Position numbers and translations under genes: made by a program
Source of the DNA: Paracoccus sp. SCSIO 75233
Lineage (GTDB): Bacteria > Pseudomonadota > Alphaproteobacteria > Rhodobacterales > Rhodobacteraceae
Assembly: GCF_027912675.1 (NCBI RefSeq)
Contig: NZ_CP115757.1
Span: 2,291,001-2,355,000 of the forward strand
Direction: 5' to 3'
Length of the DNA stretch: 64,000 nucleotides
The notes under the pieces: generated by a model
What the model saw: only the letters and a program-made list of their open reading frames with translations
The model's database searches: none
What the model was told of the DNA's origin: nothing
In this document: positions 6,649-22,362 of the stretch, in pieces
How positions within the stretch are numbered: position 1 is the first letter of the stretch
Layout: each line of letters starts with the position of its first letter

Positions 6649-8256
6649 TCATAAGGGACGGTTTGGTTTGACGCCTGCATATCGATCTGGCAGGTCGCGG
6701 CGCAGTAATTTTCCGCTGGTTGTCCGTGGGAGGTGATCGATAAAGCGGATATCGCGGGGTATCTTGAAAGCAGCGAGTTCTGCCCGGCAACACGCCTCAA
6801 GCTGTGAACGGGTGTCATCATTCGCAGCAATGCCATCCTCAAGCGCCACCAGCGCCACGAGGCGTTCGCCCAGATCGTCATCGGGAATACCGGTCACAGC
6901 TGCATCCTTCACGAATGGATGTCCGGCCAGAATACCCTCAACCTCGGCGGGATAGATATTGACACCGCCGGAGATGACGACGTCGCCGCGTCTTGACGCC
7001 AGAAACAGCCACCCATCTTCGTCAAGGTAGCCGAGATCGCCAACCGTGATCAGCTCACCATGATGAGCATCCGCCGTCTTGCCCGGATCATTGAGATATT
7101 CAAAGCCGCCATGCGGGCGGAAATAGACCGTCCCGATAACCCCCGCCGGCAGTTCTTTTCCATCGGGATCGAGGATATGTATCGAGGTGCCGTCCAGCGC
7201 GCAGCCGACCGTTCCGGGTCGTTCGAGCCATTCGCTTGATGTGACAGCGGCGGTCGAGCCCTCTGTTGCGCCGTAGAATTCATTGACGATCGGCCCGAAC
7301 CATTCGATTGCAGCATGCTTGATCCCGACCGGACAGGGGGCGCCGCCGTGGACAACCGCCTCAAGCGACGACAGATCATGACTGCCCCGTAACTCTGGGG
7401 AAAGCCGCAACCAGCGGCCGATTATCGTCGGAACAGTGAAAACGGTCGTGACACGGTAGCGTGCGATCAGTGCGAGTTGTTCCTCTGCCGAAGGACGTTC
7501 GGCGACGACCACCGTATGCCCGAAATGCAGCGCAGTCATTGCCTGACGTCCCGGTGCCGCATGGTAAAGCGGCAAGGCCGCAAGATGGACACCGGCCCCG
7601 GGATGCATGCCAAGACGGCCGAAGAAATTGATGAGCGGCGCGCCGACGCCGGGCGGCCCTTTGCGCAGCGGTTTGCGTACGGCCTTCGGAACGCCCGTCG
7701 TTCCGGATGTATAGCCCATGAATTCGCCACGCACGCCAGAGGGCGGCGCTTCGGTCGGCAAGCCAGCGTGGAACGCGGAATATGACCTGACCGATCCCCC
7801 GTCGCCATCTAGGACAATCACCTGTTCGGGTTTCAGGCCCAGATCCCGGATCACGCCGCCGATCCCGTCCAGAAGCGTTGCATCGACGAAAAAGCAACGC
7901 GCCTGACTGTCGGTGAGAACATGGGCAAGTTCGCGGCTGGTAAGCTGGGCACTGACGGGAACGAAATAGAGGCCGCTCTGCTCTGCCGCCAGCCGCAGTT
8001 CGAAATATTCGCGGCGGTTCGGGATCATGGCGAGGATCCGGTCGCCGGTCTGCAGCCCTTCCCGCGCAAAGGCGTTCGACAGCTGGTTGACCCTGTCACG
8101 CAACTCGCCAAATGTCATGCTGCCCCGGGCGGGTTCGACAATGGCCAGACGCGCGGGATCCTGTGCGGCGACATCGCCAAAAAATGGCATCGCCGCCGCA
8201 GGGCGGGCCGGAGAGGTCGGCGGCTCTGGCCCGTTGGAGGTGATGATATCGATCAT
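6649..8256 (-). CDS. AMP-forming acyl-CoA synthetase/ligase
   Basis: Class I adenylate-forming ligase of 535 aa. It activates a carboxylate with ATP to acyl-AMP and transfers it to CoA. Motifs in order: A3 core [15 protein letters not shown] (about 178-192), A5 [14 protein letters not shown] (about 308), A7 [20 protein letters not shown] (about 399), A8 [11 protein letters not shown], and the C-terminal catalytic lysine in [12 protein letters not shown]. The start at 8256 overlaps the thiolase stop by one base (TGATG). The acid specificity is not readable; neighbours (thiolase, etfBA) point to a fatty or aromatic-alkyl acid bound for beta-oxidation. The reading frame continues 71 codons upstream inside the thiolase gene, but that part is not homologous. 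Confidence 0.9.
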
Positions 8257-9320
8257 CACCCTACTGCCAGGTTTTCGTAAATCGTCGCGTTTGCCATGCC
8301 TCCGCCCTCGCACATGGTTTGCAGACCGTAACGGATTCCATCCCGCGCCATCCGGTGGATCAGGGTGGTAGTCAGTCGCGCCCCCGAGCCGCCCAGCGGA
8401 TGACCAAGCGCAATCGCACCACCCGTGGAATTCACCAGAGCGGGATCGGCATTTGTTTCGTGCAACCAAGCGCCGACGACACTGGCAAAGGCTTCGTTCA
8501 CCTCGAACGCACCGATGTCATTCATGACCAGACCGGCCTTTTTCAGCACCTGCTGGGTCGCCCGGATCGGCCCGTCCAGCATGATCACCGGCTCACTGCC
8601 GATGATCGTCGCCGCGCGGACCCGGACCAGCGGCGTCAGCCCAAGTTTCTTCGCCTTTTCGGCGGACATCATCAGCACTGCCGCCGAGCCATCGGAGATC
8701 TGGGAGGAGTTGGCCGCAGTCACCACCCCCTCCGGATCGAAGGCCGGGTTCAGCGTCGCCAGCTTTTCCACGTTGGAGCCACGCCGGATGCCCTCATCTT
8801 TTGACAGGACCGCGCCTTCGGGATTCGTGATAGGGGTAATTTCGGCCTCAAACAGCCCGTCATCCTCAGCCCGTGCTGCACGTTCATGGGATTTGACGCT
8901 GTATTCATCCAGCCATTGTCGCGACAGGTCGTATTTCCGGGCCAGCATCTCGGCGCTTTTGCCTTGATTGAACTGAATGCCCTCATAGCGCTCCTGAATA
9001 CGGGGGCTGTTCGGATCGCCCAGATTGACCCGGCGCGCTGACCCCATCGGGATCCGGCTCATGCTTTCCACGCCGCCAGCGACGACGATATCGGCCTGTC
9101 CCGAGCCGATCACTGCCGCAGCAAAATGGATCGCCTGCTGGCTGGAGCCGCATTGCCGTTCAATGGTCGTACCCGGCACATGCTCGGGCCAGCCAGCGGC
9201 AAGCACCGAATTGCGCCCGATATTACCGGCCTGTTCGCCGACCTGACCGACACATCCCCAGATCACGTCTTCAACCATTGCCGGGTCGAGATCGGCTTTC
9301 CGGGCCAATGCATTCAGCAC
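8256..9320 (-). pseudogene. Acetyl-CoA acyltransferase (thiolase), 5'-truncated by an IS
   Basis: The visible 354 residues are a thiolase from about residue 35-40 onward. They contain the acylated cysteine in IERQCGSSQQAIHF, GGVESMSRIPMGSARR, the mid-domain ATIIGSEPVIMLDGP, NEAFASV, and the C-terminal GGAIALGHPLGGSGARL with the catalytic His; the second active-site Cys is in MCEGGGMAN. The N-terminal strand and helix of the fold are missing, because the IS3-like copy 1 abuts the gene at base 9320/9321. The GTG at 9320 is an accident of the junction, not a native start. The missing 5' part is not found beyond the IS, so it has been deleted or moved. The protein is unlikely to fold, although cysteines and His are intact. 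Confidence 0.88.
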
Positions 9321-9366
9321 TGTCCCCCGTCAGCGGCTATGGCACAGATTTGAGGTTGTGATTTAA

Positions 9367-9423
9367 GGAGGATTTGGGCTTCGTCGTAGTGACGAAGGAA
9401 CGAAGATGAAGCCCAAATCCTCC
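9367..9423 (+). repeat. 16-bp perfect stem-loop at the transposase start
   Basis: GGAGGATTTGGGCTTC at 9367-9382 is an exact inverted repeat of 9408-9423, with a 25-base loop. The orfA ATG (9406-9408) lies at the loop/stem border and its first codons form the 3' arm. A competing 7-bp hairpin (9379-9385 with 9391-9397) covers the likely ribosome-binding region GAAGGA. The same structure recurs in copy 2 (15404-15460). It could block translation of transposase from transcripts that enter the element from outside, a known self-limiting strategy in other IS elements; the function here is inferred. Confidence 0.7.
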
Positions 9424-9792
9424 AATTCAAAATCGCCGACCAAGCCCCCTGCAGATCGGGTGGTCAAGGACATCCGGCGTCAGACCCGCCGCCACTTCTC
9501 GGCCGAAGACAAGATCCGCATCGTGCTTGAAGGTCTTCGCGGTGACGACAGTATCGCCGAGTTGTGCCGCAAAGAGGGCATCGCGCAGAGTCTGTACTAC
9601 AGCTGGTCCAAGGAGTTCATGGAAGCCGGCAAACGCCGCCTGGCCGGGGACACCGCCCGTGCGGCGACCTCCGGTGACGTGCAGGACTTGCGCCGCGAAG
9701 CCCGTGCGCTGAAGGAGTGCGTGGCGGACCTGACGCTGGAAAACCGCTTGCTTAAAAAAAGCATGATCGCGGATGGGGGCGACGACGAATGA
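9406..9792 (+). CDS. IS3-like transposase OrfA (copy 1)
   Basis: DNA-binding subunit of 128 aa. The helix-turn-helix region runs about residues 30-65 (FSAEDKIRIVLEGLRGDDSI, then AELCRKEGIAQSLYYSWSKE), typical of IS3/IS911-type OrfA. A leucine-rich coiled coil follows at about 90-120 (DLRREARALKECVADLTLEN), as used for multimerisation. The stop overlaps the orfB start (ATGA). Near the end is a run of seven A at 9754-9760, followed by G, in the position where IS3 elements shift frame by -1. After such a shift the orfB frame is open and would give an OrfAB fusion. The start lies in a stem-loop. Confidence 0.9.
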   Translation: MKPKSSNSKSPTKPPADRVVKDIRRQTRRHFSAEDKIRIVLEGLRGDDSIAELCRKEGIAQSLYYSWSKEFMEAGKRRLAGDTARAATSGDVQDLRREARALKECVADLTLENRLLKKSMIADGGDDE

Positions 9793-10769
9793 GGTATCCC
9801 GCATCCGAGAAGCTGGAGATCATCCGTATCGTCGAGCAGTCGCACCTGCCGGCCAGGCGGACGCTGGACCAGCTCGGCATTGCCCGCCGGACCTTCTACC
9901 GCTGGTATGACCGCTACCGGGAAGGTGGGCCGGAAGCGCTGGAGGATCGCCCTTCGGCACCGAACCGGGTGTGGAACCGCATTGGCGAGGACATCCAGGA
10001 CCAGATCGTCGAGATGGCGTTGGAGGCGACCGACCTCAGCCCACGCGAACTGGCCGTGCGCTTCACCGACGAGAAACACTACTTCGTGTCGGAAGCCACG
10101 GTCTACCGGTTGCTCAAGGCCCATGACCTGATCACCAGCCCAGCCTATACGGTAATCAAGGCGGCCGATCAGTTCCACACCAAGACCACGCGGCCGAATG
10201 AGATGTGGCAGACCGACTTCACCTACTTCAAGATCATCGGGTGGGGCTGGATGTACCTCTCGACGGTGCTTGACGACTTCTCGCGCTACATCATCGCCTG
10301 GAAGCTATGCACCAACATGCGGGCCGAGGACGTGACCGACACGCTGGACCTCGCGCTCGCCGCCTCGGGCTGCGACAGCGCCACCGTTCTACACAAACCC
10401 AGGCTGCTATCGGACAATGGCCCCAGCTACATCGCGGGCGAGCTGGCCGAATACATCGAGTCCAACAAGATGAGCCATGTGCGCGGCGCGCCGTGCCACC
10501 CGCAGACCCAGGGCAAGATCGAGCGCTGGCACCAGACCCTGAAGAACCGCATCCTGTTGGAGAACTACTTCCTGCCCGGCGACCTCGAGTCCCAGATCGA
10601 GGCCTTCGTCGAGCACTACAACAACCAGCGTTACCACGAGAGCCTGGCCAACGTGACGCCTGCCGATGTCTACTTCGGCAGGGCACAGGCCATCATCAAA
10701 CAGCGCGAAAGGATCAAACGAAAAACCATCGAATATCGGCGCTTGCAGCACCGCAAGCTCACAGCCTAA
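9789..10769 (+). CDS. IS3-like transposase OrfB, integrase domain (copy 1)
   Basis: DDE recombinase of 326 aa. An N-terminal helix-turn-helix/HTH_21-like part (residues 1-100) precedes the rve integrase core. The catalytic acidic residues are recognisable: D in MWQTDFTYFKI (about 139), D in LLSDNGPSYI (about 202) and E in HPQTQGKIERWHQTLKNR (about 238). The conserved YNNQRYHESLANVTPADVYF lies near the C-terminus. All three acidic residues are present, so the enzyme should be active. Translated identically in copy 2. It can be made by ATGA-coupled initiation or by -1 frameshifting from orfA. Confidence 0.92.
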   Translation: MRYPASEKLEIIRIVEQSHLPARRTLDQLGIARRTFYRWYDRYREGGPEALEDRPSAPNRVWNRIGEDIQDQIVEMALEATDLSPRELAVRFTDEKHYFVSEATVYRLLKAHDLITSPAYTVIKAADQFHTKTTRPNEMWQTDFTYFKIIGWGWMYLSTVLDDFSRYIIAWKLCTNMRAEDVTDTLDLALAASGCDSATVLHKPRLLSDNGPSYIAGELAEYIESNKMSHVRGAPCHPQTQGKIERWHQTLKNRILLENYFLPGDLESQIEAFVEHYNNQRYHESLANVTPADVYFGRAQAIIKQRERIKRKTIEYRRLQHRKLTA

Positions 10770-10843
10770 CATCAAATCCCAGACGAGGCCCGCTCTCCGC
10801 TAGTCTACGCCCCAATCTGCGCCAAATGTTCTGACGACGGACA

Positions 10844-12644: not shown

Positions 12645-13592
12645 ATGACTGAGCCTTTAAAGAAGCCTGTTCGAAAGGTGATCATTACCTGTGCTGTTAC
12701 GGGATCGATTCACACTCCATCGATGTCTCCGCATCTCCCGGTTACCCCACACGAAATCAGTGACGCGGCTATAGGAGCTGCCGAGGCTGGAGCCGCGATT
12801 ATTCATCTGCATGCCCGGAACCCGGAAAACGGCGTGCCGGATCAGTCTATCGACGCCTATAAGAACATTCTCCCGGTTATAAAGCAGCAGACCGGGGCTG
12901 TCCTGAATATCACCACCGGCGGTTCGACCTTGATGAGCACCGAAGAACGGCTCGGGCCCGCGCTGCATTACAAACCCGAGGTTGCGAGCCTGAACATGGG
13001 CTCGATGAACTTCGGCCTTTATCCGATGCTGAACCGATTCAAGAACTTCAAATACGACTGGGAGGAGGAATATCTGCGCACATCCGATGACCGGGTGTTC
13101 AGGAACACTTTCAGGGACATCGAGCTGATACTGACCAAATGCGCCGACAATGGCACACGTTTTGAGGTAGAGTGTTACGACATCGGCCATCTCTATACCT
13201 GTAAACACTTCGTTGACCGAGGCCTTATCAAGCCGCCGTTCTTCATCCAGTCGGTCTTCGGCATCCTCGGTGGCATCGGTCAGCATCCCGAAGACGTCAT
13301 GCACATGAAGCGTACTGCCGACCGGCTTTTCGGCGATGACTACCGGTGGTCGGTACTGGGCGCCGGGGCCCGGCAGATGCAGATCGCCACGCAGTCGGTG
13401 ATGTTGGGTGGCAACGTCCGGGTCGGGCTTGAGGACTCACTGTGGCTGGGACGCGGCAAGCTGGCGGAAAGCAATGCGGCGCAGGTCCGTGCCGCGGTCC
13501 AAATGATTGAGGCGCTTGGGATGGAGGTCGCAACCCCCGGTCAGGCGCGTGAAATGCTGGGGCTTAAGGGCGGTCACGATGTCAACTTCTGA
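12645..13592 (+). CDS. BKACE (beta-keto acid cleavage enzyme, DUF849)
   Basis: Zn-dependent TIM-barrel enzyme of 315 aa. The family condenses a beta-keto acid with acetyl-CoA to give acetoacetate and a new CoA ester (the prototype, Kce, acts on 3-keto-5-aminohexanoate in lysine fermentation). Zn ligands are visible in AAIIHLHARNP (HxH, about residues 51-61). The catalytic glutamate is in GGNVRVGLEDSLWLGRGKL (about 253-271), and STGG-like TTGGST lies at about 89-94. Substrate specificity differs widely between members and cannot be read. The ATG at 12645 has GGGGGAG before it. The following enoyl-CoA hydratase starts inside its last 14 bases, so the two form an operon continuing, apart from an IS, to 21044. 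Confidence 0.9.
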   Translation: MTEPLKKPVRKVIITCAVTGSIHTPSMSPHLPVTPHEISDAAIGAAEAGAAIIHLHARNPENGVPDQSIDAYKNILPVIKQQTGAVLNITTGGSTLMSTEERLGPALHYKPEVASLNMGSMNFGLYPMLNRFKNFKYDWEEEYLRTSDDRVFRNTFRDIELILTKCADNGTRFEVECYDIGHLYTCKHFVDRGLIKPPFFIQSVFGILGGIGQHPEDVMHMKRTADRLFGDDYRWSVLGAGARQMQIATQSVMLGGNVRVGLEDSLWLGRGKLAESNAAQVRAAVQMIEALGMEVATPGQAREMLGLKGGHDVNF

Positions 13593-13983
13593 GGTTCTGA
13601 AGACCGAAAAAGCGGATGGCATTTTGCGGCTTACAATCAATCGTCCGGAAAGGCGTAACGCGCTGAACGACGCGCTGATTGCGCAATTGACCCAAGCCTT
13701 TGTTTCTGCATCGCTGGATCCCGAGGTTCGGGTGCTAGTGCTGAGTGCGGTCGGCGATAAAGCATTCTGCGCCGGGGCTGACCTGAATCCCAGTGCCGGT
13801 ACCTTCGGTTTCGATTACTCTGAACCAACCACCACCTATGCCGAACTACTGCGAACTGCACGAAAAACCGCTGTTCCGGTGATTGGTCGGATCAATGGTT
13901 TCTGCCTTGCGGGTGGTATGGGGTTGCTGGCGATCTGTGATATGGCGGTCGCGGGTGATACGGCTGAATTCGGCCTTCCAGAA
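13579..13983 (+). pseudogene. Enoyl-CoA hydratase, 5' half (split by IS3-like copy 2)
   Basis: The first 135 codons of a crotonase-fold hydratase. It shows INRPERRNALNDALI (about 20-34), the oxyanion-hole segment DKAFCAGADLNP (about 58-69), and the second segment RINGFCLAGGMGLLAICDMA (about 102-121). It runs into the IS after FGLPE; beyond that, the frame continues 13 codons of IS sequence to a stop at 14022. If the IS and one 9-bp repeat are removed, the frame continues exactly as FGLPEVRVGLFPMQVAAL into the 3' half at 15516, giving a normal protein of 260 aa. The gene was therefore intact until a simple, probably recent insertion. The catalytic glutamates fall close to the break. Confidence 0.93.
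13975..13983 (+). repeat. 9-bp target-site duplication, left copy
   Basis: CTTCCAGAA directly before IS3-like copy 2, repeated exactly at 15507-15515 just after it. Removing the IS and one copy restores the hydratase reading frame. Confidence 0.93.
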
Positions 13984-14057
13984 TGTCCGTCGTCAGAACA
14001 TTTGGCGCAGATTGGGGCGTAGACTAGCGGAGAGCGGGCCTCGTCTGGGATTTGATG

Positions 14058-15038
14058 TTAGGCTGTGAGCTTGCGGTGCTGCAAGCGCCGATATTCGATG
14101 GTTTTTCGTTTGATCCTTTCGCGCTGTTTGATGATGGCCTGTGCCCTGCCGAAGTAGACATCGGCAGGCGTCACGTTGGCCAGGCTCTCGTGGTAACGCT
14201 GGTTGTTGTAGTGCTCGACGAAGGCCTCGATCTGGGACTCGAGGTCGCCGGGCAGGAAGTAGTTCTCCAACAGGATGCGGTTCTTCAGGGTCTGGTGCCA
14301 GCGCTCGATCTTGCCCTGGGTCTGCGGGTGGCACGGCGCGCCGCGCACATGGCTCATCTTGTTGGACTCGATGTATTCGGCCAGCTCGCCCGCGATGTAG
14401 CTGGGGCCATTGTCCGATAGCAGCCTGGGTTTGTGTAGAACGGTGGCGCTGTCGCAGCCCGAGGCGGCGAGCGCGAGGTCCAGCGTGTCGGTCACGTCCT
14501 CGGCCCGCATGTTGGTGCATAGCTTCCAGGCGATGATGTAGCGCGAGAAGTCGTCAAGCACCGTCGAGAGGTACATCCAGCCCCACCCGATGATCTTGAA
14601 GTAGGTGAAGTCGGTCTGCCACATCTCATTCGGCCGCGTGGTCTTGGTGTGGAACTGATCGGCCGCCTTGATTACCGTATAGGCTGGGCTGGTGATCAGG
14701 TCATGGGCCTTGAGCAACCGGTAGACCGTGGCTTCCGACACGAAGTAGTGTTTCTCGTCGGTGAAGCGCACGGCCAGTTCGCGTGGGCTGAGGTCGGTCG
14801 CCTCCAACGCCATCTCGACGATCTGGTCCTGGATGTCCTCGCCAATGCGGTTCCACACCCGGTTCGGTGCCGAAGGGCGATCCTCCAGCGCTTCCGGCCC
14901 ACCTTCCCGGTAGCGGTCATACCAGCGGTAGAAGGTCCGGCGGGCAATGCCGAGCTGGTCCAGCGTCCGCCTGGCCGGCAGGTGCGACTGCTCGACGATA
15001 CGGATGATCTCCAGCTTCTCGGATGCGGGATACCTCAT
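14058..15038 (-). CDS. IS3-like transposase OrfB (copy 2)
   Basis: 326-aa rve/DDE recombinase, translated identically to OrfB of copy 1. The D, D and E of the catalytic triad are in MWQTDFTYFKI, LLSDNGPSYI and GKIERWHQTLK. The start ATG overlaps the orfA stop by four bases. Transcription runs against the interrupted hydratase operon, so the element may also put antisense RNA across the 5' half of that gene. Confidence 0.92.
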   Translation of the reverse strand: MRYPASEKLEIIRIVEQSHLPARRTLDQLGIARRTFYRWYDRYREGGPEALEDRPSAPNRVWNRIGEDIQDQIVEMALEATDLSPRELAVRFTDEKHYFVSEATVYRLLKAHDLITSPAYTVIKAADQFHTKTTRPNEMWQTDFTYFKIIGWGWMYLSTVLDDFSRYIIAWKLCTNMRAEDVTDTLDLALAASGCDSATVLHKPRLLSDNGPSYIAGELAEYIESNKMSHVRGAPCHPQTQGKIERWHQTLKNRILLENYFLPGDLESQIEAFVEHYNNQRYHESLANVTPADVYFGRAQAIIKQRERIKRKTIEYRRLQHRKLTA

Positions 15039-15421
15039 TCGTCGTCGCCCCCATCCGCGATCATGCTTTTTTTAAGCAAGCGGTTTTCCAGCGTCAGGTC
15101 CGCCACGCACTCCTTCAGCGCACGGGCTTCGCGGCGCAAGTCCTGCACGTCACCGGAGGTCGCCGCACGGGCGGTGTCCCCGGCCAGGCGGCGTTTGCCG
15201 GCTTCCATGAACTCCTTGGACCAGCTGTAGTACAGACTCTGCGCGATGCCCTCTTTGCGGCACAACTCGGCGATACTGTCGTCACCGCGAAGACCTTCAA
15301 GCACGATGCGGATCTTGTCTTCGGCCGAGAAGTGGCGGCGGGTCTGACGCCGGATGTCCTTGACCACCCGATCTGCAGGGGGCTTGGTCGGCGATTTTGA
15401 ATTGGAGGATTTGGGCTTCAT
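15035..15421 (-). CDS. IS3-like transposase OrfA (copy 2)
   Basis: 128-aa helix-turn-helix protein, same translation as OrfA of copy 1, with the C-terminal coiled coil and the A7 run near its end for possible -1 frameshifting. The start codon lies within the same 16-bp stem-loop (15404-15460). Confidence 0.9.
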   Translation of the reverse strand: MKPKSSNSKSPTKPPADRVVKDIRRQTRRHFSAEDKIRIVLEGLRGDDSIAELCRKEGIAQSLYYSWSKEFMEAGKRRLAGDTARAATSGDVQDLRREARALKECVADLTLENRLLKKSMIADGGDDE

Positions 15422-15506
15422 CTTCGTTCCTTCGTCACTACGACGAAGCCCAAATCCTCCTTAAATCACAACCTCAAATCTGTGCCATAGCCGCTGACGG
15501 GGGACA

Positions 15507-15515
15507 CTTCCAGAA
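15507..15515 (+). repeat. 9-bp target-site duplication, right copy
   Basis: CTTCCAGAA directly after IS3-like copy 2, identical to 13975-13983. Confidence 0.93.
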
Positions 15516-15893
15516 GTTAGGGTTGGACTCTTCCCGATGCAGGTCGCGGCATTGATGCAGACCATGCTGCCGCCGCGCGTCTTTGCGGAGATGTGCTATA
15601 CTGGGGAGAGGCTGAGCGCTGCCGATGCACTGGCTTGCGGGCTCGTAAGTCGCGTGGTCCCGCCGGATGAACTGAGCGCTGCCACCGACGCGATGGCGGC
15701 CTCCGTGGCCAAGAACTCCCCGTCGGCGATCCGGCGCGGCAAGTATGCGCTGACCGCGATGGCGGGTATGACGTTCGAGCAGCGTATCGCTTACATGGAG
15801 GCGCAGGCCGGTCTGATGCCGATGACCGAAGACGCCCGCGAGGGTCTTGCAGCCTTTGCCGAGAAACGCGCACCGCGGTGGACGGGCAAATGA
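15516..15893 (+). pseudogene. Enoyl-CoA hydratase, 3' half
   Basis: The last 125 residues of the split hydratase: VRVGLFPMQVAALMQTMLPP, the trimerisation/C-terminal helices GERLSAADALACGLVSRVVP and AIRRGKYALTAMAGMTFEQR, ending RAPRWTGK. It could be translated alone from the ATG at 15537, but it lacks both oxyanion-hole segments and would be inactive. The stop (15891-15893) overlaps the ATG of the HMG-CoA-lyase-like gene at 15890, confirming the original operon. The IS sits between this part and the operon's promoter, so downstream expression may now depend on the IS or on internal promoters. Confidence 0.92.
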
Positions 15894-16828
15894 ACGATCT
15901 CCCAAGCCGCGCTCATATCACGGAGGTTGGTCCGCGCGAGGGCTTTCAGTTCGAGCCGCCGCATATCACGACCGCTAACAAGATCCGGTTGGTTGATGCT
16001 CTGTCCCAGACCGGCTTGCCCGAGATAGAATGTGCGTCGTTCGTGAACCCTAAGGTCGTGCCACAAATGGCCGACGCTTTCGCCATCGCGGAGGGCATCA
16101 CCAGACATGACAGAGTGGCCTACCGCTGCATCTGGTTAAACGAGAAAGGCTTTTTGCAGGCGCTCGGCAGCGGGTTTGACACGCCTGCGCTGACCTCCGG
16201 GTCCGCTTCCGACACGTTTCTGCTGAAGAATAATAACAGCAGCCCGGATCAGCAGCTGGAACGTCAGCGCAAGCTTCGGCACGTCTATAATGAAAACGGT
16301 CTGGGCAGCGGGCCAGTCTACCTTTTCACCGCATTTGGCTGCAACTACGAGGGCGCGATCCCGGTCAAAAAGGCCCTGCAGCGCTGCGCTGAGCTCGTTC
16401 ATATCTGCGAAGAGGCAGGGGTGCCGCCGGCCAACATAACGCTCTGTGATACCATAGGGGCCGCCGGTCCCGCAGATGTCCGCGCGCTGGTGTCCGCCGT
16501 CCGCGAGCGCTGGGACTACCCGGTCGCGCTGCACCTGCATGACACGAGGGGCCTCGGTATCGCAAACGCACTTGCCGGGCTGGAGTTGGGCGTGGCGCGG
16601 TTCGACAGTTCGGTGGGCGGCTTGGGCGGCTGTCCTTTCGCAGGCAACCGGTCCGCCGCAGGAAACGTCGCAACGGAAGAACTGGCTCTGATGTGCGATC
16701 GTATGGGTGTCGAGACTGGTATTGATCTTGGTGCGCTCGTCGAGGTCGCCAGCCTTGCCGAAGAAATCGTCAGCCACCCGCTGCCGGGCAGGCTTTCGAA
16801 GGCGGGTCTGTTCAACGCAACCCTCTGA
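15890..16828 (+). CDS. Hydroxymethylglutaryl-CoA lyase-like enzyme
   Basis: DRE-TIM metallolyase of 312 aa. HMG-CoA lyases cut 3-hydroxy-3-methylglutaryl-CoA to acetoacetate and acetyl-CoA; relatives cleave citramalyl-CoA-like or other 3-hydroxyacyl-CoAs. Visible motifs: ITEVGPREGFQFE near the N-terminus (divergent form of the DxxPRDGLQNE metal/substrate motif), VALHLHDTRGLGIANAL (metal-binding HxH, about 214-230), and GGLGGCPFAGNRSAAGNVAT with the catalytic loop Cys (about 245). The first motif carries E for the usual D and F for L, so the substrate may differ. The ATG at 15890 overlaps the hydratase stop. It is the second complete gene of the forward CoA operon. Confidence 0.85.
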   Translation: MNDLPSRAHITEVGPREGFQFEPPHITTANKIRLVDALSQTGLPEIECASFVNPKVVPQMADAFAIAEGITRHDRVAYRCIWLNEKGFLQALGSGFDTPALTSGSASDTFLLKNNNSSPDQQLERQRKLRHVYNENGLGSGPVYLFTAFGCNYEGAIPVKKALQRCAELVHICEEAGVPPANITLCDTIGAAGPADVRALVSAVRERWDYPVALHLHDTRGLGIANALAGLELGVARFDSSVGGLGGCPFAGNRSAAGNVATEELALMCDRMGVETGIDLGALVEVASLAEEIVSHPLPGRLSKAGLFNATL

Positions 16829-16863: not shown

Positions 16864-18060
16864 ATGAGAAAGATGAAGAAACCAAGATTGCCCGCTGGCA
16901 TTGAGCAAACCGACGAACGCTGCCAGATTGCAGACTCCGTCCGCCGTATCTGCGACAAATTTGATGATGACTGGTGGCTGGAAAAGGAGCGGAGGGCAGA
17001 GTTCCCGCACGAATTTCATCAAGCCATGGCCGAGGCTGGCTGGCTCGGAATCACCATGCCTGAGACATATGGCGGCGCGAACCTCGGGGTGACCGACGCG
17101 GCGCTTCTGATGCAACTGATTGGCAATTCGGCGGGAGCGATGGCTGCCTGCTCGTCGATCCATATTAACCTCTTCGGTCCGCATGCCATGGTTAGGCACG
17201 GCACCAAAGAGCAAAAGGATCGCATGATCCCGCCGCTGGTTACGGGAAAGCATATCGCTTGTTTTGGCGTGACCGAACCGGATGCCGGGCTCGACACTAC
17301 GCACATCACAACCCGGGCCGTCAAGAACCGCGATCACTACATCGTAAATGGCCAGAAGGTCTGGACCTCAACCGCGCAGCAGGCACATAAAATACTGTTG
17401 CTGACACGCACCACGCCCATTGAGGAGTGCAAGCGTCCGATCGACGGTATGACTCTCTTCTACACGGACCTCGACCGTTCTAGGATTAAGGTCACTCCGA
17501 TTGAAAAGATGGGCCGTGCGGCGGTGAATTCGAATTCGATTTTCATCGAGGACCTGAAGGTTCCGGAAGAGGACCGGATCGGCGACGAGGGCGCGGGCTT
17601 CAAACTGCTGCTCGATAGCCTGAACCCCGAGCGTGTTTTGGTCGCCGCGGAGGCGATAGGCGTCGGTCGCCGGGCGCTGGAAAAGGCCGCTGACTACGCT
17701 AACGAACGTGTCGTGTTCGGCCGTCCCATTGGGCAGAACCAGTCGATCCAGCACCCGCTGGCGCAAAGCTGGATGGCGCTGGAGGCCGCCGATCTGATGG
17801 TCTGGCATGCAGCGCGTCTTTATGACACCGGTCAGTCCTGTGGGGCCGAGGCAAATAGCGCGAAATTCCTCGCCGCCGATGCTGCGTTCGATGCCTGTGA
17901 CCGCGCGGTGCGCACCCATGGCGGCTTTGGCTACGCCAAGGAATACCACGTGGAACGTTATATGCGTGAAATCATGCTACCGCGCATAGCCCCGGTGACA
18001 CGTGAACTCATCATGTCATTCATAGCGGAGCGCGTGCTTGAATTGCCCAAATCCTATTGA
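16864..18060 (+). CDS. Acyl-CoA dehydrogenase
   Basis: FAD enzyme of 398 aa that makes the alpha,beta double bond in an acyl-CoA and gives electrons to ETF. It has the three-domain ACAD layout: N-terminal helices (about 1-130), the mid beta domain with CFGVTEPDAGLDTTHITTRA (about 136-155) and KVWTSTAQQAHKILLLTRT, and C-terminal helices with ERVLVAAEAIGVGRRALEKA. RTHGGFGYAKEYHVERYMRE is the FAD-binding C-terminal segment. A glutamate in LNPERV is at the position used as base by the isovaleryl/long-chain types, while the C-terminal loop has GYAKEYHVER. Acyl specificity is unknown. It follows the lyase by 35 bp. The first ATG at 16864 is used; a second lies three codons later. Confidence 0.9.
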   Translation: MRKMKKPRLPAGIEQTDERCQIADSVRRICDKFDDDWWLEKERRAEFPHEFHQAMAEAGWLGITMPETYGGANLGVTDAALLMQLIGNSAGAMAACSSIHINLFGPHAMVRHGTKEQKDRMIPPLVTGKHIACFGVTEPDAGLDTTHITTRAVKNRDHYIVNGQKVWTSTAQQAHKILLLTRTTPIEECKRPIDGMTLFYTDLDRSRIKVTPIEKMGRAAVNSNSIFIEDLKVPEEDRIGDEGAGFKLLLDSLNPERVLVAAEAIGVGRRALEKAADYANERVVFGRPIGQNQSIQHPLAQSWMALEAADLMVWHAARLYDTGQSCGAEANSAKFLAADAAFDACDRAVRTHGGFGYAKEYHVERYMREIMLPRIAPVTRELIMSFIAERVLELPKSY

Positions 18061-18068
18061 GGCCCGTA

Positions 18069-18800
18069 ATGAAACTGGATGGCAAGTCAGCGCTGATTAC
18101 CGGAGCTTCGTCGGGCCTTGGCGCCCATTTTGCGAGGGTTTTGGCCATGCAAGGAGCGCATGTAACCTGTGTCGCCCGCCGTGTCGAGCGCTTGGAGGTG
18201 CTGGTCACCGAAATCGGTGCCCGTGCCCGCGCCGTGGCGCTGGACGTGACCGACCCGGGCAGCGTGGCGGCAGCCTTCGAGGGCCGCGCCTATGACATCG
18301 TGATCAACAACGCCGGCGTCACCCATGACGGCCCGGCGCTGACGACCACCGAGGACAACTGGTCCTGGGTCATCAACACCGACCTGAACGGCGTCTTCCG
18401 CGTGGCCCAGGGCGCGGCGAAGTCCCTTGTGGCCGCCGAGAAGGGCGGCAGCATCATCAACATCGCCTCGATCCTGGGCCTGCGCGTGGCGGGGAACCTC
18501 TCGGCCTATGCCACGGCAAAGGCAGGCGTGGTGCAGATGACGAAGAGCCTCGCGCTCGAATGGGCCCGCCACGGCATCCGCGTCAACGCGCTTTGCCCGG
18601 GCTACATCGAAACCGACCTCAACCGCGATTTCTTCGCCTCCGACGCCGGCAAATCCCTCATCAAACGCGTCCCCCAACGCCGCCTAGGCCAGATGTCCGA
18701 CCTCGACGGCCCCCTCCTGCTGCTCGCATCCGACGACAGCAGCTTCATGACCGGAGCAGAGATTGTCGTCGACGGCGGGCATCTCGTCTCTTCGCTGTAG
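18069..18800 (+). CDS. SDR-family oxidoreductase (LvaD-like position)
   Basis: Classical short-chain dehydrogenase of 243 aa with cofactor motif TGASSGLG (about 13-20), NNAG (about 83-86), and catalytic S in INIASILGLRVAG and YxxxK in LSAYATAKAGVVQM. It ends IVVDGGHLVSSL. The ATG at 18069 is preferred over an in-frame TTG at 18057 that overlaps the upstream stop. It lies directly before the ACAD10/11-like dehydrogenase and the phosphotransferase-like kinase. In the Pseudomonas levulinate cluster an SDR (LvaD) is adjacent to the corresponding pair, so it may oxidise a hydroxyacyl-CoA formed by hydration. From about base 18230 the sequence becomes richer in GC and in C-ending codons than the gene's own start. 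Confidence 0.87.
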   Translation: MKLDGKSALITGASSGLGAHFARVLAMQGAHVTCVARRVERLEVLVTEIGARARAVALDVTDPGSVAAAFEGRAYDIVINNAGVTHDGPALTTTEDNWSWVINTDLNGVFRVAQGAAKSLVAAEKGGSIINIASILGLRVAGNLSAYATAKAGVVQMTKSLALEWARHGIRVNALCPGYIETDLNRDFFASDAGKSLIKRVPQRRLGQMSDLDGPLLLLASDDSSFMTGAEIVVDGGHLVSSL

Positions 18801-18810
18801 GAAAGTACCC

Positions 18811-20019
18811 ATGGATTTCACCATCTCACCCGAGGTCGAGGATTACCGCGCGAGGATTGCGAAGTTCGTCGAACGCGAACTGCTGCCGCTGGAAGAGGAC
18901 CGGTCTAACTACGACCCGCACGAGAACATCAGGACGGATGTCCTGAATACCATGCGCGCGCGGGCGAAGGCCGAGGGGCTCTGGTGCCTGCAACTGAAGA
19001 AGAAAACCGGCGGGCAGGGGCTGAACAAGGTCGGCATGGCCGTCTGCTACGAAGAGATGAACCGCTCGATTTTCGGGCCCGTCGTCTTCAACGCGGCAGC
19101 CCCCGACGACGGTAACATGCAGGTGCTCGAGAAGGTCGGGACCGCGGCGCAGAAGGAGGAATGGCTCCAGCCCATCGTGCGCGGTGACGTTCAATCAGCC
19201 TTCGTGATGACCGAGCCGGCGCCGGGCTCGGGCTCGGATCCGGGCGGCATGATGCTGACCAAGGCCGAGAAGAAGAATGACCGCTACATCATCCGCGGCC
19301 GCAAGTGGTTCATCACCGGGGCCGAGGACAGCGATCATTTCATCCTCATCGCCCGCACCTCCGACGACCCGCGCAAAGGCCTTTCGGCCTTCCTGCACCG
19401 CCGCGACACACCGGGCTTCCGCATCGAACGGCGCATCCCAATCATGGGCCCGGAAGAACATGGCGGTCACTGCGAGGTGGTCTACGAGGACGTGGAGATC
19501 CCCGCCGAGAACCTGCTGATGGAAGAGGGTGACGGCCTCAAGCTGACCCAGATCCGTCTCGGGCCCGCGCGGCTGACCCATTGCATGCGCTGGCTGGGCC
19601 TGTCGAAGCGCTGTGTCGAGGTGGCCAGCGAATATGCCCATAACCGCTTTGCCTTCGGCGAGCGCCTGTCGCAGCGCGAGAGCGTTCAGATGATGATGGG
19701 CGATCTGGCGATGCAGATCGAGGTCGGGCGCATGTTAGTGGCCAAGGCGGCCTGGGAGCTGGACCAGGGCAGTTTCGCACGCAAGGAGGTCTCGATGGCC
19801 AAGGTCCACGTGGCGAATCTTCTGCACAAGGCCGCCGATACCGCGATCCAGATCAACGGCGCGCGCGGCTATTCGAAGGACACGCCGCTTGAGTGGATCT
19901 ACCGTTATGCCCGCCAGGCGCGGCTGGTCGACGGGGCCGACGAGGTCCACAAGATGTTGCTGCACCGCAACATGGAAGCCGAAGGCCGCGACTTCTGGAA
20001 GTGGGGCGTGGGCGTATGA
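18811..20019 (+). CDS. ACAD10/11-like acyl-CoA dehydrogenase (LvaC-like)
   Basis: 402-aa acyl-CoA dehydrogenase-fold protein of the ACAD10/ACAD11 clade. Diagnostic stretches are AAPDDGNMQVLEKVGT (about 91-106), FVMTEPAPGSGSDP (about 131-144), EEHGGHCEVVYEDVEIP, and above all RLGPARLTHCMRWLGLSKRC (about 249-268), plus the C-terminal DGADEVHKMLLHRN. In this clade the position holding the catalytic Glu of ordinary dehydrogenases is altered. Characterised relatives (LvaC, human ACAD11) remove a 4-phosphate from a 4-phosphoacyl-CoA to give an enoyl-CoA. The kinase gene that would make that intermediate follows with a 4-base overlap, the same pairing that is fused in human ACAD11. The assignment to this chemistry is inferred from residues and context. 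Confidence 0.85.
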   Translation: MDFTISPEVEDYRARIAKFVERELLPLEEDRSNYDPHENIRTDVLNTMRARAKAEGLWCLQLKKKTGGQGLNKVGMAVCYEEMNRSIFGPVVFNAAAPDDGNMQVLEKVGTAAQKEEWLQPIVRGDVQSAFVMTEPAPGSGSDPGGMMLTKAEKKNDRYIIRGRKWFITGAEDSDHFILIARTSDDPRKGLSAFLHRRDTPGFRIERRIPIMGPEEHGGHCEVVYEDVEIPAENLLMEEGDGLKLTQIRLGPARLTHCMRWLGLSKRCVEVASEYAHNRFAFGERLSQRESVQMMMGDLAMQIEVGRMLVAKAAWELDQGSFARKEVSMAKVHVANLLHKAADTAIQINGARGYSKDTPLEWIYRYARQARLVDGADEVHKMLLHRNMEAEGRDFWKWGVGV

Positions 20020-21044
20020 CTGTAACGACCACTGGCATGGCTGATTTCGATACGTCGGCGCTGGCGGCCTACCTTCGGCAGACCTTTGGTGCGACAGAGA
20101 CCATCAAGCTGGACCGGATAGCCGGCGGACAGTCCAACCCGACCTATTTCCTGACGTTCGGCGATCAGCGGCTGGTCTTGCGCAAGCAACCCAACGGTCC
20201 GATCCTGAAAGGCGCGCATGCCATCGACCGGGAATATCGCGTGCTCCGCGCGCTGCATCCGGCCGGCGTTCCTGTGGCAGAGCCCGTCCTGTTTCACGAA
20301 GACCGCGATGTCGTCGGCACGCCGTTCTACCTGATGAAGCGTGTCGAGGGCCGGGTCTTTGCAGACGGTGCGTTGAAGGATGCAGACCCGTCCGAACGGT
20401 ATGCAATGTGGATGGGGCTTGCCGATGCGATGGCCACTATGCACTCCGTACGGCCAGAGGAGGCGGGCCTGGGAGATTTCGGTCGTCCGGGTAACTACTT
20501 TGACCGCCAGGTCTCGCGCTGGCTGAGGCAATGGCGCGAGAGCCAGAGCGGCCCGATCCCCGAGCTCGACGCGCTGGCCGACTGGCTGCTGGCAAACCAG
20601 CCCGAAGATGACGGACGGGTCAGCCTGGCGCACGGTGACTATCGTATGGGCAACGTGATCTTTCACCCGATCGGGCCCCGGGTCGCGGCGATCCTTGATT
20701 GGGAACTGTCCACGCTTGGGCATCCTCTTGCCGATCTTGGTTACTGCTGCATGGCCTGGCACACGTCGCCGGAGGAATACGGCGGCCTCCTCGGCCTCAA
20801 CCTGGCGGCCAATGGCCTGCCAACGGAAGAAGAATTCGTAGCCCGCTACATGGCGGCAAATCCCGGCATGGCACCGCTGACCAAATTCCATAAGGCCTTT
20901 GCCCTGTTCCGGTTCTCAGTGATCTGGGTTGGCATCGCCGACCGCGTCCGAACCGGAACAGCCGCAAGCGCCGACCGGGCAGACCCACTGCATCTGGCCC
21001 GTCGGTTTGCGGTACGGGGGAACGAGGTCACCAGGGAAGTGTAA
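20016..21044 (+). CDS. Aminoglycoside-phosphotransferase-family kinase (LvaA/ACAD11-N-like)
   Basis: 342-aa kinase-fold protein matching the N-terminal domain of ACAD10/11 rather than drug-resistance enzymes. Visible motifs: IAGGQSNPTYFLTFGDQRLV (about 27-46, glycine-rich loop and the following strand), VLRKQPNGPILKGAHAIDRE with the ATP-binding Lys, VSLAHGDYRMGNVIFHP (about 205-221, catalytic HGDxxxxN) and VAAILDWELSTLGHPLADLG (about 226-245, DWE metal-binding motif). All catalytic residues are intact. Relatives phosphorylate the 4-hydroxyl of 4-hydroxyacyl-CoA. It starts at the ATGA overlapping the dehydrogenase stop, so the two subunits of the proposed kinase-lyase pair are made together. 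It is the last gene of this operon; the next element is an IS256 scrap. Confidence 0.87.
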   Translation: MTVTTTGMADFDTSALAAYLRQTFGATETIKLDRIAGGQSNPTYFLTFGDQRLVLRKQPNGPILKGAHAIDREYRVLRALHPAGVPVAEPVLFHEDRDVVGTPFYLMKRVEGRVFADGALKDADPSERYAMWMGLADAMATMHSVRPEEAGLGDFGRPGNYFDRQVSRWLRQWRESQSGPIPELDALADWLLANQPEDDGRVSLAHGDYRMGNVIFHPIGPRVAAILDWELSTLGHPLADLGYCCMAWHTSPEEYGGLLGLNLAANGLPTEEEFVARYMAANPGMAPLTKFHKAFALFRFSVIWVGIADRVRTGTAASADRADPLHLARRFAVRGNEVTREV

Positions 21045-21412: not shown

Positions 21413-22213
21413 TCAGGGGGTTCCGGGCGCATGATCCAGGCGTACAATCCAGTCCTTGGTCAGGGGTGAAAGCGCCGGATATCGAACGGAAACCAAGGGA
21501 TCATGACCAGGTATGATATGATCGAAACTATCGGCCAACCGTTTGACAGATTCGTAGCCTTCCAATGCATCCGAAACCGAATCCAGATACGGAAATACGC
21601 GGCGATCTTCGAGATGTGCGTAGAAATGAGCTACGTCTGACGCAATAATAACATTGCCCCTCTTCGTCTTCACGCGAACAGATTGCAGGCCCCTAGAGTG
21701 ACCGCCCATATGATGCAACGTAATTCCTGGGAACAACTCGGTGTCCCCGTCATGGAAACGGACCGAGCCTGCATAGACACGTCGAACCATGTTTACGACA
21801 TCTTCAGCGTCATATGGCAGATTTAACGCCCTGTGGCACATACAGCGCCCGGTTGCGAAGGCCATTTCGCTATCTTGCAAGTGGAAGCAGGCGTTCGGAA
21901 ACAGGCCATCATTGCCGGCATGGTCGTAATGCATATGACTTATTATCACATCGGTAACGGCATTCCGGTCGATTCCCAGCGCCTCGAGCCCTTCCGCAAC
22001 CGGTCGCGAAATTTTTCGCTTTCGCTTTCGCGCCGACACCTCATCGAAACCCGTATCGACTACGATCGTTCGTGACGAATTGCACAGTATCCAGATATAG
22101 TAGCTAATCGGGATGGGCTGGTCATGCGGATCTCCCCCTATGAACACTTCGGCACCGTTCCGATCTCCTTCAGCGTACCGAACGGCGAACGCCTCATAAA
22201 CATCATCACTCAT
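21413..22213 (-). CDS. MBL-fold hydrolase, N-acyl homoserine lactonase-like
   Basis: 266-aa metallo-beta-lactamase-fold protein of the lactonase (AttM/AiiA-like) subgroup. The zinc motif is VIISHMHYDHAGN (HxHxDH, about residues 89-101). Later ligands are in LHHMGGHSRG (about 156-165), NVIIASDVAHF (Asp, about 177-187) and FDHIIPGHDP (about 233-242). These are all seven metal-binding residues expected for a dinuclear site. The start MSDDVYEAFAVRYAEGDRNG at 22213 is chosen because the family's N-terminus begins there. It may open a lactone substrate to a hydroxy acid, which would suit the neighbouring kinase/dehydrogenase pair; quorum quenching is an alternative. It is followed at 149 bp by livK on the same strand, upstream in transcription. 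Confidence 0.82.
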   Translation of the reverse strand: MSDDVYEAFAVRYAEGDRNGAEVFIGGDPHDQPIPISYYIWILCNSSRTIVVDTGFDEVSARKRKRKISRPVAEGLEALGIDRNAVTDVIISHMHYDHAGNDGLFPNACFHLQDSEMAFATGRCMCHRALNLPYDAEDVVNMVRRVYAGSVRFHDGDTELFPGITLHHMGGHSRGLQSVRVKTKRGNVIIASDVAHFYAHLEDRRVFPYLDSVSDALEGYESVKRLADSFDHIIPGHDPLVSVRYPALSPLTKDWIVRLDHAPGTP

Positions 22214-22362
22214 TGTGGCTCTCCGGTTCGCCTGTAAATTTGGCAGTGATCTGATTTGGCGTTGCCCCTTCACGTTCAGGAAAGGACGATGCCGAGGTGC
22301 AAGTATCTGAACAGCGCAAAGTTAGCGCCGTGGACAACAGGGGTTCAGCGAACTCCTCAAAG

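Follow-up and report, generated by a model that had tools for sequence, protein, structure and literature searches.

Genes at the locus and the break in the operon

In the window, a stretch of 64,000 nucleotides from Paracoccus sp. SCSIO 75233, three intact genes are read in the same direction on the forward strand: an SDR oxidoreductase of 243 residues (18069–18800; open frame; PF13561, 187 bits), the counterpart of LvaD; an ACAD11-like dehydrogenase of 402 residues (18811–20019; open frame), here termed P0002 and presumed to eliminate phosphate; and an APH-fold kinase of 342 residues (20016–21044; PF01636, 174 bits), presumed to act on 4-hydroxyacyl-CoA. The original prediction had recognized an ACAD10/11 fingerprint in the dehydrogenase, a matching phosphotransferase domain in a gene overlapping it by four bases, and an SDR adjoining the pair, all of which is borne out by the translations; the motifs EEHGGHCEV and DEVHKMLLHRN are present, the phosphotransferase motifs are found, and the ATG of the kinase lies at 20016, the dehydrogenase ending at 20019. 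An MBL-fold gene (21413–22273) could encode a lactonase supplying 4-hydroxy acids, but it is convergent and scores below every NCBIfam cut-off.

Upstream, on the same strand, lie genes for a beta-keto acid cleavage enzyme (BKACE; 12645–13592; 315 residues; PF05853, 362 bits), an enoyl-CoA hydratase of the crotonase type, an HMG-CoA-lyase-like protein (HMGL; 15890–16828; 312 residues), and ACADa (16864–18060; 398 residues), an acyl-CoA dehydrogenase by Pfam and NCBIfam that is of the ordinary and not the ACAD11-like kind. BKACE exceeds the cut-off of the NCBIfam equivalog NF053538, "3,5-dioxohexanoate:acetyl-CoA acetone transferase" (535 versus 430 bits), and its nearest PDB entries, 8rio and 8rip, are BKACE15 of P. 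denitrificans (PMC11961710). HMGL passes the cut-off of NCBIfam PRK05692 (255 versus 246 bits) and, aligned to 1ydo, 6nds and 2cw6, keeps His-x-His (HLHDT) as well as the Cys loop and Asn (GGCPFA...GN), which we take to be functional motifs of HMG-CoA lyase. Its Cys loop is two residues longer, however, and it reads PREG where the known enzymes have PRDG; the Asp of PRDG, presumably a catalytic residue, is thus a Glu, as opposed to the Asp of all three solved enzymes. PREG was found in all five operon copies examined (window, L162, L032, L034, L043).

That the triad stands in an operon with BKACE, hydratase and HMG-CoA-lyase-like genes had been part of the original prediction, and it holds for BKACE and HMGL, whose operon is conserved in four other genomes; the hydratase of this strain, however, is not intact. 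Its 5′ part (13579–13983; PF00378, 110 bits, model positions 2–125) ends at an insertion sequence of 1523 bp with two reading frames on the reverse strand (13984–15506), and its 3′ part (15507–15893; 70 bits, model positions 124–250) begins with the second copy of a 9-bp target duplication and has a stop codon overlapping the ATG of HMGL. An identical, inverted copy of the element lies at 9321–10843, and the nine bases are repeated at the flanks of the copy inside the hydratase gene; joining these flanks restores a single open frame matching the intact hydratase of L162. The cut in the hydratase, together with the failure to find in this genome the type I CoA-transferase that intact relatives encode upstream in their operons, makes it probable that the pathway is impaired in this strain; the presence of its genes is no sign that it operates here.

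The order BKACE-hydratase-HMGL-ACAD-SDR-ACAD11-kinase recurs with tight spacing in four other Rhodobacteraceae (L032, L034, L043 and G259, the last with L162); in L034, BKACE and hydratase share one reading frame, and the ACADa relative in G259 is 93% identical. It is this rare seven-gene operon that is new, the triad itself being common. No paper on the operon was found among titles and abstract beginnings of the open-licence literature.

Affiliation of the dehydrogenase and the kinase

The best PDB matches of P0002 are ACAD11 (8v3u, 236 bits), 4hr3 (234.7 bits) and again ACAD11 (2wbi, 234.5 bits), with ordinary acyl-CoA dehydrogenases following from 176.5 bits downward; the kinase matches 3dxp best (293 bits), followed by ACAD11 (8v3v, 222 bits). 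These scores rule out a chance resemblance to the ACAD11 system. Mouse ACAD11 has R626, H634, R637 and D753 at the positions special to ACAD10/11 and LvaC, to which roles are assigned in the available text of PMC12440821; placed on 8v3u, they correspond to R249, H257, R260 and D374 of P0002, so that Arg, His and Arg on one helix and the catalytic Asp are all present (four of four placeable residues). The same four are kept in 19/19 rows of its clade, in all five rows paired with LvaA/LvaB, in all seven ACAD11-type rows and in L146_545, and in the alignment none is kept by ACADa, by six ordinary acyl-CoA dehydrogenases of the same genome, or by three of another kind. Human ACAD11 P463, named as a conserved Pro widening the pocket in the part of PMC11342911 available, was kept out of this count because its placement is unsure. 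Of the two columns that qualify, both with Pro in P0002 (P90 and P98), the ACAD11-type rows have Pro in 1/7 and 7/7, respectively, and it is the 1/7 column to which the numbering points.

It might be argued that P0002 is a plain acyl-CoA dehydrogenase and that the kinase acts on something else, as 236 bits to ACAD11 compare with 420 for an ACAD11-type bacterial protein; we regard this as highly improbable given that all four special positions are kept in P0002 and none in the six aligned ordinary enzymes of the genome. The kinase, aligned to 8v3v and 3dxp, keeps HGDxxxxN and DWE over a full-length APH match, which supports, by motifs, a catalytically complete enzyme. Owing to the four residues and the complete kinase motifs, the best reading of SDR, dehydrogenase and kinase is a module converting 4-hydroxyacyl-CoA to enoyl-CoA, and such a module probably forms the final stage of the larger catabolic operon.

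In the tree, P0002 falls into a clade sister to the ACAD11-type one, which forms a group (100/99) that excludes it, and not inside an LvaC-ACAD11 clade as had been expected; its substrate may therefore differ from that of ACAD11-type enzymes. Within the sister clade it belongs to a seven-row subclade (100/100) with rows of the four related operons and two others. P. putida LvaC is absent from this tree, and its place rests on the published identity to ACAD10 (62%) and ACAD11 (56%), as given in the accessible text of PMC11342911. In the kinase tree, all 12 LvaA-type rows, that is, kinases taken from beside DUF6285 (LvaB) genes, P. putida LvaA not among them, are set apart from the kinase of the triad by a 100/100 branch; an LvaA-type affiliation is not supported. 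What had been staked on clade membership has therefore failed in part, with the dehydrogenase in a sister clade and the kinase beyond a 100/100 branch in trees that lack P. putida LvaA and LvaC.

These results bear on the reading that the operon serves levulinate or 4-hydroxyvalerate in the manner of lva, only with another kinase. The three activities are those of LvaA, LvaC and LvaD, and the nearest solved relative of BKACE accepts short beta-keto acids, making levulinyl-CoA a possible product. Yet LvaB (DUF6285) has no match in the genome (the control search matched in 2 of 14 named genomes), for which a direct levulinate operon was set aside, and the kinase lies outside the LvaB-adjacent clade. 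Further, the operon contains no acyl-CoA synthetase, an AMP-binding gene lying on the other strand at 6649–8259, and BKACE, HMGL and CoA-transferases play no part in lva in the available portion of its published description; the reading is accordingly quite improbable. The P. citronellolis locus is likewise without LvaB in the text of PMC6692424 available. In L184–L188, the present kinase is replaced by an LvaA-type kinase and LvaB beside an SDR and a dehydrogenase that match those of the triad in kind, which suggests that the two types of kinase do one job; two distinct kinase clades thus accompany one dehydrogenase group. The LvaA type is found in 9 of the 80 nearest loci.

Frequency of the triad and proposed role of the operon

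Separate genes for kinase and dehydrogenase, which had been set against the single protein of human ACAD11, are the ordinary arrangement and nothing special: they are seen at 60 of the 80 nearest loci, and the genome itself carries a second SDR-dehydrogenase-kinase triad. In 56/79 related loci with room upstream, an SDR gene immediately precedes the ACAD11-like gene. Since BKACE, hydratase, HMGL and ACADa all stand beside the triad in only 3 of the 80 loci, its link to them could be accidental. The triad might then be a free-standing salvage system for miscellaneous 4-hydroxy fatty acids or gamma-lactones, merely downstream of an unrelated BKACE/HMGL pathway, which would also agree with its occurring twice in the genome and with an AMP ligase following it in 25/74 loci with room downstream. 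We consider this unlikely, as the seven-gene order is repeated with tight spacing in four other genomes, and the 100/100 subclade of P0002 holds the rows of those operons along with the two others.

Beyond the gene content, residues, conservation and break observed, we infer a scheme in which every reaction and substrate is a proposal. ACADa would dehydrogenate a 3-substituted glutaryl-CoA, the crotonase would hydrate the product, and the HMGL-like lyase would cleave the hydrated compound to give a beta-keto acid, R-CO-CH2-COO-, together with acetyl-CoA; from these two, BKACE would form acetoacetate and R-CO-CoA bearing a 4-oxygen. The SDR would interconvert 4-oxo and 4-hydroxy acyl-CoA, presumably by reduction in analogy to LvaD, the APH kinase would use ATP to phosphorylate the 4-hydroxyl, and elimination of phosphate by the ACAD11-like enzyme with its FAD would yield a 2-enoyl-CoA for beta-oxidation. 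According to the accessible text of PMC11342911, bacterial relatives of both enzymes substituted for the ACAD10 domains on 4-hydroxyhexanoyl-CoA. That HMGL generates both substrates, which BKACE consumes at once before an ACAD11-type module strips the oxygen, would be a novel route, which we put forward tentatively as a possibility; in the titles and abstract beginnings of the open-licence literature searched, no catabolic route from HMGL to BKACE was found. It does not appear to be a general pattern, and was rejected as such, because nine of ten stretches around HMGL relatives (two of them short) have no BKACE match, the tenth having one of 35% about 7 kb away, and because no HMGL match occurs in any of the nine stretches L163–L171 around ACADa relatives (10 stretches from 8 of 21 genomes were surveyed, that of G259 included). 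In L171, a BKACE and an HpcH/HpaI-type lyase accompany the ACADa relative. If the route is real, free beta-keto acids from 3-substituted hydroxyglutaryl-CoA, for example of ring-cleaved terpenoids, would be processed further with no need for a CoA ligase of their own.

Comparison with known systems

Accounts of the mammalian enzymes that strip fatty acids of a 4-hydroxyl date from 2024–2025 (PMC11342911 and PMC12440821, in the text available), and in bacteria this reaction seems to have few established roles apart from levulinate catabolism. An operon, conserved as this one is, that ties 4-hydroxyl removal to BKACE and an HMGL-like lyase would point to a specific, testable physiological role, and would also give BKACE, whose closest solved relative lacks a known role, a candidate function.

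With ACAD10/ACAD11 of mammals and their split bacterial orthologues the triad shares kinase, FAD dehydrogenase and the four special residues, ACAD11 being the top PDB match of the dehydrogenase and the second of the kinase. Unlike them, it comprises two separate proteins without the HAD domain of ACAD10, and P0002, in its sister clade, scores about half as high against ACAD11 as a bacterial protein of the ACAD11 type does. With the lva operon of Pseudomonas putida (LvaA, LvaB, LvaC, LvaD) it has in common that kinase, LvaC-like dehydrogenase and SDR occur together; here, however, LvaB is not found, the kinase is of another clade, the order is SDR-dehydrogenase-kinase, and the operon has no ligase but BKACE, HMGL, hydratase and a second acyl-CoA dehydrogenase. 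The LvaD step had been called an oxidation, which reverses its direction, as LvaD of Pseudomonas reduces levulinyl-CoA (PMC6692424, available text).

BKACE resembles subfamily NF053538, whose cut-off it passes, with BKACE15 as nearest structure; considered beside it was the triacetate acetoacetate-lyase of the Clostridium phloroglucinol pathway (PMC10470551, available text). In contrast to both, the present BKACE adjoins a crotonase (in frame in L034), followed by HMGL, acyl-CoA dehydrogenase and triad. HMGL, finally, resembles HMG-CoA lyase in passing the PRK05692 cut-off and in its Cys, His-x-His and Asn motifs; it differs in PREG for PRDG, in the longer Cys loop, and in an operon in which, among the genes of L162, no carboxylase is seen.

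The dehydrogenase and kinase pair

The SDR gene (18069..18800, + strand), the ACAD11-like dehydrogenase gene (P0002; 18811..20019, +) and the APH-fold kinase gene (P0003; 20016..21044, +) of the original prediction are all present as open frames; the latter two share a 4-base overlap, and Pfam assigns the three to the SDR, acyl-CoA dehydrogenase (ACAD) and APH families, respectively. Searched against PDB sequences, P0002 most closely matches ACAD11 (8v3u, 8v3v, 2wbi) and 4hr3 at 234–236 bits, ordinary ACADs following from 176 bits downward, while the top matches of P0003 are 3dxp, ACAD11 (8v3v, 8v3u) and 9o56.

According to PMC12440821, ACAD10/11 and LvaC, the dehydrogenase of the Pseudomonas levulinate operon, share special residues, which in mouse ACAD11 are R626, H634 and R637, all located on a single helix, plus the catalytic D753. 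Aligned to 8v3u, these correspond to R249, H257, R260 and D374 of P0002. Among 42 aligned ACADs, the complete set is kept in every one of the 19 sequences that make up the clade of P0002, in five of five sister rows paired with LvaA (kinase) and LvaB (its DUF6285 partner), in seven of seven ACAD11-type rows and in L146_545; none of the four occurs in six ordinary ACADs of the own genome, in ACADa (the ordinary ACAD of the operon; 16864..18060, +) or in three ACADs of another kind. The conserved proline described in PMC11342911 (human P463) could lie in either of two candidate columns; P0002 has proline in both, the ACAD11-type rows in 1/7 and 7/7. Since the special residues are accompanied by a kinase that retains the HGDxxxxN and DWE motifs, the pair is best read as phosphorylating a 4-hydroxyacyl-CoA and then eliminating the phosphate; to this extent the predicted 4-hydroxyacyl-CoA module is supported.

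The phylogenetic part of the prediction, that both proteins belong with LvaA/LvaC and ACAD10/11, is partly contradicted by trees built without P. putida LvaA and LvaC themselves. The P0002 clade (19 rows; branch supports 99/95) and the five LvaA/LvaB-paired rows form a group (100/98) which is sister to the ACAD11-type clade and outside it; that clade (7 rows, 100/99) consists of bacterial proteins picked by score, the one from L141 for its 420 bits to ACAD11 and the rest by resemblance to it. Both join with L146_545 at 97/87, several end branches of this tree being long and its outer joins less safe. A 100/100 branch lies between P0003 and all 12 LvaA-type kinases, the latter being encoded adjacent to DUF6285 genes; the side of P0003 also includes the L197 kinase, neighbour of an ACAD11-type dehydrogenase, and the L102 kinase, initially grouped with P0003, was placed by the tree among the LvaA kind.

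Conservation and state of the operon

The order BKACE (beta-keto acid cleavage enzyme; 12645..13592, +), enoyl-CoA hydratase (13579..15893, +), HMG-CoA-lyase-like HMGL (15890..16828, +), ACADa, SDR, ACAD11-like dehydrogenase and kinase recurs in three of the 80 named loci, the top-scoring ones among 593, namely those of Rhodobacteraceae MAG DJN.25 (L032), Tropicibacter naphthalenivorans (L034) and Poseidonocella sp. HB161398 (L043), and in a relative's genome, G259 (L162). A type I CoA-transferase is encoded upstream in T. naphthalenivorans and Poseidonocella; in the MAG the contig start is too near to judge this. In G259, an SCPx-like thiolase, a ChsH2-type OB protein and type III and type I CoA-transferases lie upstream and a BktB-type thiolase downstream. 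BKACE and hydratase of T. naphthalenivorans form a single 563-codon frame (L034 5269–6960), either a true gene fusion or a sequencing error. L033 is devoid of HMGL, ACADa and SDR, L036 retains HMGL and ACADa as fragments, and in L045 ACADa is present and BKACE was not found. ACADa has matches at E ≤ 1e-120 in 21 of 295 family genomes, the own among them (at most six candidates scored per genome), its relatives being at most 68% identical except in the own genome and G259; ten stretches covering 8 of the 21 were read, and only the one from G259 carries the triad of SDR, dehydrogenase and kinase. HMGL relatives outside the own genome reach at most 52% identity (385 class genomes).

In the window, a 1523-bp insertion sequence (13984–15506), flanked by a 9-bp target duplication, interrupts the hydratase; the insertion is clean and probably recent, because the flanks joined without it give one frame aligning with the intact L162 hydratase. 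The other operon genes remain open. A second, identical and inverted copy (9321–10843) has no target duplication and abuts a thiolase lacking its start (its Pfam match begins at model position 32) and a DctM lacking its end (match up to 191 of 413), which together suggest a local deletion. With the type I CoA-transferase found in intact operons as query, the own genome gives no match and G259, as a control, does. The pathway is probably impaired in this strain. Third-position GC is 0.84–0.85 in the SDR and ACAD11-like genes (18069–20019) versus 0.69–0.73 in ACADa, BKACE and kinase; a mosaic origin is possible.

Proposed upstream steps

HMG-CoA lyases yield acetyl-CoA and a beta-keto acid. BKACE converts a beta-keto acid and acetyl-CoA into an acyl-CoA and acetoacetate (PMC11961710), and its nearest solved relative accepts 3,5-dioxohexanoate and short beta-keto acids. 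Known directly are the gene set, residues, conservation and break; ACADa and hydratase would produce the substrate of HMGL, whose two products would be the two substrates of BKACE, and the resulting acyl-CoA would bear a 4-oxygen for the triad to process. Two observations speak against such a hand-over: in L171, BKACE and a relative of ACADa are accompanied by a lyase of the HpcH/HpaI type instead of HMGL, and BKACE was not seen in 9 of 10 stretches around HMGL relatives. HMGL has PREG instead of PRDG (Glu for Asp) in all five operon copies read, and its catalytic Cys loop is longer by two residues; its substrate may therefore be other than plain HMG-CoA.

Convergent to the operon, a metallo-beta-lactamase-fold protein weakly like AHL and 4-pyridoxolactone lactonases is encoded at 21413–22273 (−); if a lactonase, it could provide 4-hydroxy acids. 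Elsewhere in the genome, contig G000:C2 (220,952 bases) gives 22 matches to an ACAD query, some possibly belonging to one gene, and also holds an SCPx/ChsH2-like pair and CaiB-like genes; this makes it a large catabolic region that may be a plasmid.

The triad elsewhere and the exchange of its kinase

The P0002 genome scan gave 593 confirmed stretches, of which the 80 top-scoring were kept; among these, a P0003-type kinase (at least 45% identity) follows within 3.5 kb downstream in 60, an LvaA-type kinase lies within 5 kb in 9, and 11 have neither; an SDR is directly upstream in 56 of the 79 with upstream room. Kinase matches at E ≤ 0.001, distant kin counted, occur in 92 of 149 family genomes, the one listed genome of the same genus having none, and dehydrogenase matches at E ≤ 1e-60 in 257 of 72,556 plasmid records. 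The own genome encodes a second triad (L026 11183–19526; G000:C1:2947182–2955525), its dehydrogenase 75% and its kinase 56% identical to those of the window, with putative TetR-like, AMP-ligase-like and then 1097-codon carboxylase-like genes as neighbours.

Five stretches located via an LvaB family search (L184–L188) encode an SDR (53–59% identical) and a dehydrogenase (61–68%) of the window's kind, followed by an LvaA-type kinase with DUF6285 in place of the window's kinase type; compared with the window, this amounts to a partner exchange between kinase types. One dehydrogenase group is thus found with kinases of two clades, which speaks for a reaction common to both. Separate genes for both activities are already described for Pseudomonas and Burkholderia in PMC11342911; the triad is an ordinary module, and the operon around it is a new variant.
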